A stretch of DNA of 53,846 nucleotides from NCBI GenBank assembly GCA_017694295.1, contig JADINA010000011.1:1-53846 (forward strand). The letters run 5' to 3'. The notes under the pieces are model-generated. The model saw only the letters and a list, made by a program, of their open reading frames with translations, had not been told where the DNA came from and did not search any database. The position numbers were made by a program, and so were the translations under genes. Source of the stretch: Candidatus Alloenteromonas pullistercoris (lineage in GTDB: Bacteria > Bacillota_I > Bacilli_A > RFN20 > CAG-826). Of this stretch, positions 30,083 to 32,937 are shown piece by piece. How positions within the stretch are numbered: position 1 is the stretch's first letter; each line of letters begins with the position of its first letter.

Positions 30083-30217
30083 ATGAAGAAAACCTATCAA
30101 CCTTCGAAGAAGAAACACCAGAATAAAGCCGGGTTCCGTGCCCGCATGGCCACCCCGACCGGCCGCGCCGTTTTGGCTCGCCGCCGCGCTAAGGGACGCG
30201 CCAAGATCGCCGACTAA
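30083..30217 (+). CDS. rpmH: Ribosomal protein L34
   Basis: A 44-residue, highly basic L34 of the large ribosomal subunit. It begins [19 protein letters not shown] and contains the conserved [19 protein letters not shown] core. The start is set by AGGAG seven bases upstream; a longer in-frame reading begins before the promoter and is not plausible. First gene of the rpmH-rnpA-yidC-khpB operon, the classic neighbour of dnaA. Confidence 0.97.
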
Positions 30218-30220
30218 CCC

Positions 30221-30592
30221 ATGAAACGGGCGTTTCGCGTCAAGGCCCATCGCGATTTCGATCGCATCATCAAAAACGGGTCGAAGGTCAAAACAAAGAA
30301 CTTCGCCCTCAGCTTCCTGCCCGCCGCTTCGAATACCAATACCAGAATCGGCATTGCCGTCGGCAAAAACAACGGCAAAGCCGTAACCCGCGTTAAGGAG
30401 AAAAGGCAGGTACGGGCCATGCTTGCGAAACGAGGCGACTACACGCTCCCAATCGATCTGATAATCGTTATTCGGCCCTGCTATAAAACCGAGCGCTTCG
30501 CCGAAAACGAAATCGAATTGAATCAAGCCCTCGACGAGATCCGATCCAGGGTCCTTGATAAAAACAAAAGCGCAGGACAAAGCATTGAATAA
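30221..30592 (+). CDS. rnpA: Ribonuclease P protein component
   Basis: Protein subunit of RNase P, which matures tRNA 5' ends; 123 residues, basic. The N-terminus MKRAFRVKAHRDFDRIIKNG matches the family. The central signature usually reads A-V-x-R-N-R-x-K-R, but here it is AVTRVKEKRQVR (54-65), so the Asn and second Arg of the RNR motif are replaced. The start is three bases after the rpmH stop with no separate Shine-Dalgarno sequence, so translation is probably coupled. The end overlaps the start of yidC. Confidence 0.92.
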   Translation: MKRAFRVKAHRDFDRIIKNGSKVKTKNFALSFLPAASNTNTRIGIAVGKNNGKAVTRVKEKRQVRAMLAKRGDYTLPIDLIIVIRPCYKTERFAENEIELNQALDEIRSRVLDKNKSAGQSIE

Positions 30593-32294
30593 GAAAACCA
30601 AGAAAACGATATTAGGCGCGGCAGCCCTTGGCATTGGCGCTATCGTTTTGACCGGATGCACCGGCAATTTTTGCAATTCCGAAGACAAAGCCCATATGGC
30701 TTATCCATATGAGCAAGGCGTCACCATCTACGTCTCGGCTGCCGAATACCAAGAGCTTAAGGCCAGCGAGGACCTAAGCGCCCTCATCGCCGACGAGGAG
30801 GAGCGCGGCATCGCCGGCCCCGCTTTCGTCGACGAGGAAGGAAACGCCCGCAACACCCAAATCTATAAGTACGTTCCCTATGAGCTGAGCGAGAACGGGA
30901 AAATCACCTTCACCGCCAACAAAGCCGACGCCTTGCTTCAGCCAAGCGTCATCGACCGGGCCTTCTCCTCCGGCTACCAAATCCCGAGCCTTGAATATTT
31001 CGCCGCCATCGACGACTACGTCTTGAACGCCACCGCCTATTTGGCGGAAAACGAAGAGGAAGGCTTAACCGATTACGATTTGGCCAACTCCTCCAAAAAC
31101 ACCGGGACCGACGGCTATATCGAAAGTTTGGATGTCAATGACATCAATCCGTATGCCGCACCAGACGAATACGGCGAGGACAACACCCTTTCCGAGCCAA
31201 ATAACGATTCGATCCTTAGGAACTTCGGCTATATAAAGTTCTCCGGCCCCGATGACGAGCTTTTCGGCTATTACGAGCGCTGGAACGCCGCCCTCTATTC
31301 CTCCGACGAGCCCGGCTTGGGCATGGATAATTGCCCCACCCAGGATTTCCAGGACCTTTACGAAAACGCCGTCAACTCCCAGGTTAATACCATCCGTTCC
31401 TGCATCGCGACCCAGGATGGCCACTTCGGCCATTATGGCGAGCACGCCGACTGGGAAGTCGACATCAGCAAGAAGTCTTGGGGCTATGCTTGGGGAGTTG
31501 GCTTCCTTGAAGGCCTCCTTGTCTACCCGGTCGCCTGGCTGGTCGACACCTTCGCCTTTGGCATGGACCCGGCCTTGACCGGCTTTGGGCAAATCCTCGC
31601 CCTCGTCTTCGTCACCTTGATCGTCCGCGGCGTTTTGCTCTTGCTCACCTTCAAGAGCACCATGGACAGCCAGAAGATGCAGGCTTTGCAGCCCGAACTG
31701 AGCAAACTCCAAGCCAAATACCCCAATTCCGACAAGAACCAGGCCGAGAAGACGCGCCTTGCCCAGGAGCAGATGGCTTTGTATAAGCGAAACAAAATCC
31801 ATCCGTTTAGGCAAATCCTCGTCCTCATCATCCAATTCCCGGTCTTCATCTGCGTTTGGTCCGGCTTGCAAGGCTCGGCCGCCTTGTCCTCGGGCGAGTT
31901 CCTCTCCATGCGTCTTTCCGACACCATTTCATCGATTCTGTTCGATGTAAGCGGCGCTTGGTATTACAACCTCAACGGGTGGTGGACGGCCCTTGTCCTA
32001 TTCATTTTGATGGCCGGGGTCCAGATTATGGCGATGATGCTGCCTCGCATCATAGCCAAAGCCCAGTCCAAGAAGCTTCCTAAGCTTGGCAAGAACCCCG
32101 CCCAATCCAGCGCTCAAAAGCAAATGAAATGGGTTTCGATATTCATGATGATCTTCACCATCATCATGGGCTTCTTCCTGCCCTCGGCCATGGCTGTTTA
32201 CTGGTTGATCGGCGGCTTGATTTCGATCGCGCAGACCGGCATCACCCAAGCCATCATCGCCCACTCCAAGAAGAAAGCCAAACATTCCAAGTAA
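30585..32294 (+). CDS. yidC: YidC/Oxa1 membrane insertase, lipoprotein with large ectodomain
   Basis: Inserts membrane proteins with or without Sec. I chose the TTG at 30585, with AGGA at 30574-30577, because it gives a textbook lipoprotein signal: MNKKTKK, a hydrophobic core and lipobox LTGC with Cys25. Another TTG at 30555 is possible. Residues 26 to about 298 form an acidic, Tyr/Asn-rich extracellular region, absent from Bacillus SpoIIIJ and YqjG, which are about 260-290 residues in all. From about 300 comes the Oxa1 core: five membrane segments, the groove Arg348, and a Lys-rich tail. The coding frame overlaps rnpA by 8 bases. Total 569 residues. Confidence 0.93.
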   Translation: MNKKTKKTILGAAALGIGAIVLTGCTGNFCNSEDKAHMAYPYEQGVTIYVSAAEYQELKASEDLSALIADEEERGIAGPAFVDEEGNARNTQIYKYVPYELSENGKITFTANKADALLQPSVIDRAFSSGYQIPSLEYFAAIDDYVLNATAYLAENEEEGLTDYDLANSSKNTGTDGYIESLDVNDINPYAAPDEYGEDNTLSEPNNDSILRNFGYIKFSGPDDELFGYYERWNAALYSSDEPGLGMDNCPTQDFQDLYENAVNSQVNTIRSCIATQDGHFGHYGEHADWEVDISKKSWGYAWGVGFLEGLLVYPVAWLVDTFAFGMDPALTGFGQILALVFVTLIVRGVLLLLTFKSTMDSQKMQALQPELSKLQAKYPNSDKNQAEKTRLAQEQMALYKRNKIHPFRQILVLIIQFPVFICVWSGLQGSAALSSGEFLSMRLSDTISSILFDVSGAWYYNLNGWWTALVLFILMAGVQIMAMMLPRIIAKAQSKKLPKLGKNPAQSSAQKQMKWVSIFMMIFTIIMGFFLPSAMAVYWLIGGLISIAQTGITQAIIAHSKKKAKHSK

Positions 32295-32316: not shown

Positions 32317-32937
32317 ATGAAGGAATTCACCGCGAAAACCCTTGAGGAGGCCATTGCCCAGGCCTGCGAAGCCCTCGGCGTCAAAGAGAACGCCTTGGTC
32401 TACGAGGTCAAAGAGGAGAAGAAAGGCCTATTCAAGAAAACCGCCACCATCGGCGTCTACCAAATCGAGGACGCCGCCGATTACATTGAATCCTACCTCA
32501 AAGGCGCCCTTAAGGCACTAGGCGTCGAGGTCACCACCACCTCCACCATCGAGGAGGACGTGATCAAGGTCGTCATCGATTCCCCGCGCAACCCGATTAT
32601 CATCGGTAAAAACGGGAAAACCCTGCAAGCCCTTAACGAAATCGCGAAAATCGCCCTCTCCACCAGGTTCCGCCACCGTTACAGAATCGCCCTTGACGTC
32701 GGCGGGTACAAAGAGGATCGCTATTCCCGCATCACCCGCATCGCCCGCCGCGCGGCCCATGATGTCCAGCGCAGCCACGTCGATGTCTCGCTAGACCCGA
32801 TGACCCCAGACGAAAGGCGCGTCGTCCACAATGCCCTCGCCGGCTTCCGCAACATCAAAACCGAATCGTTTGGCGAAGGCCAAGACAGAGCCGTCACCAT
32901 CGAATACGTCGAAGACGGGGAAGAAAGCGAACAATGA
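32317..32937 (+). CDS. khpB: RNA-binding protein KhpB/Jag
   Basis: A 206-residue RNA-binding regulator linked with cell division and elongation in Gram-positives, usually paired with KhpA (not in this window). Domains in order: Jag_N (about 1-50, with the KGLFKKTA segment), a KH domain (about 85-150, with the IIIGKNGKTLQAL loop) and R3H (about 150-206, with RRAAHDVQRSH and the RRVVHNAL core). GGAG precedes the ATG. Last gene of the rpmH operon; a terminator follows after five bases. Confidence 0.93.
   Translation: MKEFTAKTLEEAIAQACEALGVKENALVYEVKEEKKGLFKKTATIGVYQIEDAADYIESYLKGALKALGVEVTTTSTIEEDVIKVVIDSPRNPIIIGKNGKTLQALNEIAKIALSTRFRHRYRIALDVGGYKEDRYSRITRIARRAAHDVQRSHVDVSLDPMTPDERRVVHNALAGFRNIKTESFGEGQDRAVTIEYVEDGEESEQ

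Follow-up and report, generated by a model that had tools for sequence, protein, structure and literature searches.

The P1 domain of Escherichia coli YidC is a beta-supersandwich which follows an uncleaved TM1. Contacts of P1 with both client proteins and SecF have been reported, and its residues 215-265 bind SecF, yet Sec-dependent proteins are still inserted when a large P1 deletion blocks the binding of SecF (PMC7618853). Because this deletion is tolerated, the ectodomain of a YidC need not be important (PMC7618853), and, with contacts on one side and a tolerated deletion on the other, the role of the extracytoplasmic domains of YidC is unsettled even in E. coli. YidC proteins in the form of lipoproteins are already well known (PMC7530257, PMC8595059, PMC4136701). 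Here we analyzed a lipoprotein-type YidC with a large region ahead of the core from Candidatus Alloenteromonas pullistercoris, whose gene lies in a stretch of 53,846 nucleotides (the window).

The yidC gene is located at positions 30585-32294 on the plus strand of the window, and encodes 569 amino acid residues from a TTG start codon to a stop codon at 32292-32294. The gene order is that of an origin region, in which the minus strand carries gyrB, recF, dnaN and dnaA and the plus strand rpmH, rnpA, yidC, jag and mnmE; the genes of the window outside the family searches are named by position and sequence; rpmH-rnpA-yidC-jag-mnmE is the usual context of the yidC operon. An rpmH-like frame ends at 30217, 5' of rnpA (RNase P protein; 30221-30592, plus strand), the stop codon of which (30590-30592) overlaps the start of yidC by 8 nt, and a jag-like gene (32317-32937, plus strand) is found 3' of yidC; both genes were taken from the list of open reading frames. 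The TTG start proposed in the initial annotation is supported by a Shine-Dalgarno-like AGGA, read from the sequence 7 nt upstream (30574-30577, plus strand), and by a similar AGGA...ATTGAAA layout in several relatives (L008, L009, L010, L015 and L016). The protein matched the Pfam family PF02096 (60KD_IMP) at residues 338-554 (E = 1.8e-32, 113 bits against a gathering score of 35), and it is the sole PF02096 protein detected in its own genome, which has a size of 1.42 Mb and is 87% complete, so that absences from this genome are provisional. A YidC match was found in 139 of the 146 genomes of the same family, and the closest named record was that of Candidatus Alloenteromonas pullicola (71% identity). 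Note that the YidC frame of one relative (L026; G083:C1:196144-197757) contains one TGA and one TAA, indicating a frameshift or an assembly error. Judging from its sequence, the gene encodes the housekeeping YidC insertase of a gut bacterium, with the insertase activity assigned by homology.

The N-terminal 24 residues (30585-30656, plus strand) form a predicted lipoprotein signal peptide with a hydrophobic stretch and a lipobox, a layout which is alike in the homologues of the family. The lipobox LTGC (L22-T23-G24-C25; 30648-30659, plus strand), noticed in the initial annotation as a perfect one, was seen as described, and its lipid-accepting residue Cys25 (codon 30657-30659) is invariant in all 66 aligned family members. 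Since signal peptidase II (LspA) and Lgt are encoded in the same genome (PF01252, 5.5e-31; PF01790, 2.3e-46), lipidation of Cys25 is expected. Two Lgt homologues (G000:C31:13035-13823 and G000:C20:5591-6268) are present despite the small size of the genome. The YidC/Oxa1 core, which had been recognized behind the acidic region and is confirmed by the position of the PF02096 match, corresponds to residues 299-569 (31479-32291, plus strand); a Foldseek search of the model placed it on the YidC structures 3wo6 and 3wo7 with target TM scores of 0.75-0.77 (0.77 for 3wo6, from Bacillus halodurans). The core keeps Arg348 (31626-31628, plus strand; found in all 66 family members), which we take to be the groove arginine from what is known of the B. 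halodurans protein.

Between the signal peptide and the core lies the ectodomain, residues 25-298 (274 residues; 30657-31478, plus strand). It contains 52 acidic and 15 basic residues from C25 to S298, giving a net charge of -37, in agreement with the large acidic region pointed out earlier. AlphaFold2 predicted a confidently folded domain for the ectodomain alone (pLDDT 94.1, pTM 0.92), which consists mostly of helices and contains a few short strands, and for the whole protein the pLDDT was 92.7. Searches with the ectodomain gave no significant fold match in the PDB, including a second look with VIA-align, no PDB sequence match of note, no consistent Pfam family and no match in a library of viral models and folds. 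The model thus predicts a folded domain for which no counterpart was found in the solved structures, where a new fold means one with no solved relative in a comparison set of PDB structures and viral models; if the fold is new, the ectodomain would be a small structural target of interest.

The lipid cysteine, Phe29 and Asp143 are invariant across the 66 family homologues, and Cys30, Gly45, Pro134, Tyr259, Cys273 and others are conserved in at least 90% of them. In one pair of close relatives (L003 and L004), dN and dS were 0.07 and 1.02 for the ectodomain (dN/dS about 0.07) and 0.015 and 1.14 for the core (dN/dS 0.013), and among close relatives the dN of the ectodomain is about 5-9 times that of the core. 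The ectodomain is therefore coding and constrained by purifying selection, yet faster-evolving than the core.

Two of the conserved cysteines bracket the ectodomain: Cys30 in the CTxxFC motif near the lipid (30672-30674, plus strand) and Cys273 in the RSCIAT motif ahead of the membrane core (31401-31403, plus strand), its putative partner, each present in 64 of the 66 family members. When members of the order were checked, 90 of 97 kept both, three in two lineages had lost both, and four, all from genus g9 (L029, L044, L047 and L056), had lost one; in these counts the 97 rows are related by descent, and two members of family f3 (L201 and L202), in which the FC cysteine is replaced, were counted as keeping it on account of a nearby cysteine. 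Even ectodomains shortened to about 80 residues, in families f2 and f4, keep both bracketing cysteines. The pattern is suggestive of a disulfide bond across the ectodomain's base, a reading which is weakened by the single cysteine of the g9 members. Other cysteines are present in the ectodomains of these g9 members.

Ectodomains of the same family (f1) range from 162 to 329 residues, and with several members of families f2 and f4, in which the ectodomain has about 80 residues, the span in the order is about 80 to 330 residues. The profile of the ectodomain matched 52 of 57 family genomes, including all 41 of good quality, and nearly every YidC in 33 of the 35 genera of the family keeps the domain. 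All matches in the 57 genomes lie in the YidC frame except for a marginal one (E = 0.004), which was the only candidate for a free-standing domain. In 392 genomes covering the phylum, the profile was found only in the same order (families f1 and f3). Comparison between profiles linked the ectodomains of f1, f3 and f5 to one another (99.9-100%) and that of f1 to the group of f2, f4, f6 and f7 (90.5%), whereas that of f8 was linked solely through the latter group (87%). We defined the ectodomain family of the order by the CTxxFC motif, a second cysteine ahead of the core and a match to the profile, and all three are found in this YidC. By these sequence comparisons the ectodomain is a trait of the whole order, essentially confined to fusions with YidC. 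The ectodomain is thus lineage-specific, having been found in one order only among the 392 genomes, but it is not peculiar to this gene, since the whole order carries it in lengths of about 80-329 residues.

The initial annotation also assumed that Gram-positive YidC proteins have almost no ectodomain, and this does not hold in general, because several other lineages of Bacilli carry ectodomains of no detectable homology at the same place and NCBIfam contains PRK02201 YidC models of 380-715 positions. In the ectodomain-free families of Bacilli that were examined, the whole segment ahead of the core, including the signal peptide, has about 30-85 residues. The YidC of f22, a TGA-decoding, Mycoplasma-like family, has a lipobox-type start and 270-440 residues ahead of the core; lipoprotein YidC proteins of f12, f16 and f26 have about 170-245 residues, and some of f28 have about 125. 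Homology of the f22 ectodomain to the present one was not detected (hhalign probability 3.5%), nor was any found between those of f12, f16 and f26 and the present one or with each other (at most 0.5% in all profile comparisons of these three families). A shared ancestry of the ectodomains across orders was considered, and it was not detected in the profile comparisons. On the maximum-likelihood tree of the core, which has moderate support for the deep branches, no fewer than seven changes, gains and losses being pooled, are required to explain which YidC proteins have a long ectodomain, and the nearest neighbor of the order is the clade of f22 and f11 (SH-aLRT 87, not starred). Three sequences (L253 in f12, and L254 and L255 in f28) have no long ectodomain though their kin have one, and would represent natural deletions or separate gains. 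It is a tentative view, to which we give somewhat less than an even chance, that the ectodomain is an undescribed fold confined to a single order of Bacilli and a standing part of its only insertase, that unrelated domains were independently gained in other Bacilli, and that such domains are a recurrent solution and not a proteobacterial speciality.

As for the function, a chaperone or docking role, as had been proposed, is plausible by analogy. Lgt would lipidate Cys25 and signal peptidase II would then cleave before it, so that in the mature protein the lipid would tether one end of the ectodomain and the first helices of the core the other; because of this double anchoring, the ectodomain is expected to lie just above the outer opening of the groove, probably closed at its base by Cys30 and Cys273. 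Such a platform might hold or shield those segments and loops of client membrane proteins that have been translocated, might contact SecYEG-SecDF, or both, in cells in which neither peptidoglycan-synthesis genes nor a PrsA-type foldase were detected (for the PrsA-type rotamase, the search covered the 87% complete genome). Taken as a whole, the balance leans modestly toward this reading, a housekeeping lipoprotein YidC with an ectodomain acting as a client-holding and/or Sec-contacting platform. With only one YidC detected in this order, natural ectodomain sizes from about 80 to 330 residues offer a natural comparison between client holding and Sec docking, to which the parallel, unrelated domains of other Bacilli add.

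The strongest of the alternatives, itself unlikely, is that the ectodomain mainly docks the Sec translocon, especially a divergent SecDF, and makes no contact with clients. The genome retains a divergent SecDF of 937 residues (L263:308-3121, G000:C9; SecDF_plasm 5.9e-33, below the cut-off), and the binding of SecF by a short segment of E. coli P1 (PMC7618853) points in the same direction, but families f19 and f21 have weak matches to a divergent SecDF together with a YidC that lacks a long ectodomain. Absence of SecDF had been considered as a reason for the ectodomain, and was dropped with the presence of the divergent protein.

It is rather doubtful that YidC could largely do without the ectodomain, in this view an ornament which would influence the folding or stability of the protein mildly at most. 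This could be argued from the members of f2 and f4 that manage with about 80 residues and from the tolerance of E. coli P1 to a large deletion (PMC7618853). Fast dN and the wide span of sizes do fit a loosely constrained accessory role, but retention in nearly all genera of the family, the conserved motifs and purifying selection speak against an ornament.

Regarding the cell surface, no PF00905 transpeptidase was found among the listed genomes of the family, and FtsW/RodA exceeded the cut-off in one of 57; therefore, the cells of this family are probably wall-less, judging from their gene content, and the ectodomain would face outward directly. The exception (G005:C48:11439-12476, f1) is a strong FtsW/RodA match, which could be a retained wall gene or contamination. 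This setting, the acidic character of the domain, its variable size and its rate of evolution above that of the core would also accommodate an exposed surface or binding domain of wall-less, host-associated cells that faces the environment and is carried by YidC by chance. We regard this as quite improbable, since the ectodomain also occurs in members of the order with transpeptidases (G154 and G164 of f3), its dN/dS of about 0.07 indicates purifying selection, and anchoring at both ends near the membrane limits its reach. A strict link between the ectodomain and wall loss was likewise dropped, because f12 and some members of f3 have transpeptidases as well as an ectodomain; families f11, f19 and f21, with unlisted genomes counted as having no match, show neither a transpeptidase match nor a long ectodomain. 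Within f3, PF00905 was found in G154 and G164 and not in G147 and G159, suggesting recent wall loss.

Finally, a beta-supersandwich like that of E. coli P1, or translation from a later start such that no domain is made, has nothing in its favor beyond the shared position and is scarcely credible. The model is mainly helical and a search with the isolated domain matched no YidC chain, so that homology to P1 is rejected as far as the sequence and fold searches reach, and the signal peptide, the lipobox and the domain are all conserved under purifying selection, which makes the downstream start very unlikely.

A search of open-access literature, which misses most subscription journals, yielded no papers on the ectodomain, and this ectodomain family, its conservation throughout the order and the unrelated ectodomains of other Bacilli appear to be undescribed. 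Against the NCBIfam PRK02201 models, the core alone aligns (best 153.9 bits against a cut-off of 452). The long YidC proteins of f22 share the lipobox-type start and the long segment ahead of the core, but the ectodomains have no detectable homology. E. coli YidC (3WVF, 6AL2, 3BS6 and 3BLC) likewise has a large extracytoplasmic domain directly ahead of the core, whereas the present protein has a lipobox and a predicted, mainly helical domain without a match to P1 in sequence or fold, so that the initial view of the ectodomain as not of the E. coli type is borne out: in Foldseek, the matches of the full-length model to the YidC proteins of E. coli and Bacillus span roughly the core length, and with the ectodomain alone no YidC chain, and hence no P1 chain, was among the matches in the PDB. 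The lipoprotein YidC proteins of Gram-positive bacteria (Bacillus subtilis SpoIIIJ, B. halodurans YidC2 (3WO6) and Streptococcus mutans YidC1 and YidC2) have the lipoprotein signal peptide, the core fold and the groove arginine in common with this YidC, which differs from them in having about 274 residues between the lipid cysteine and the core.
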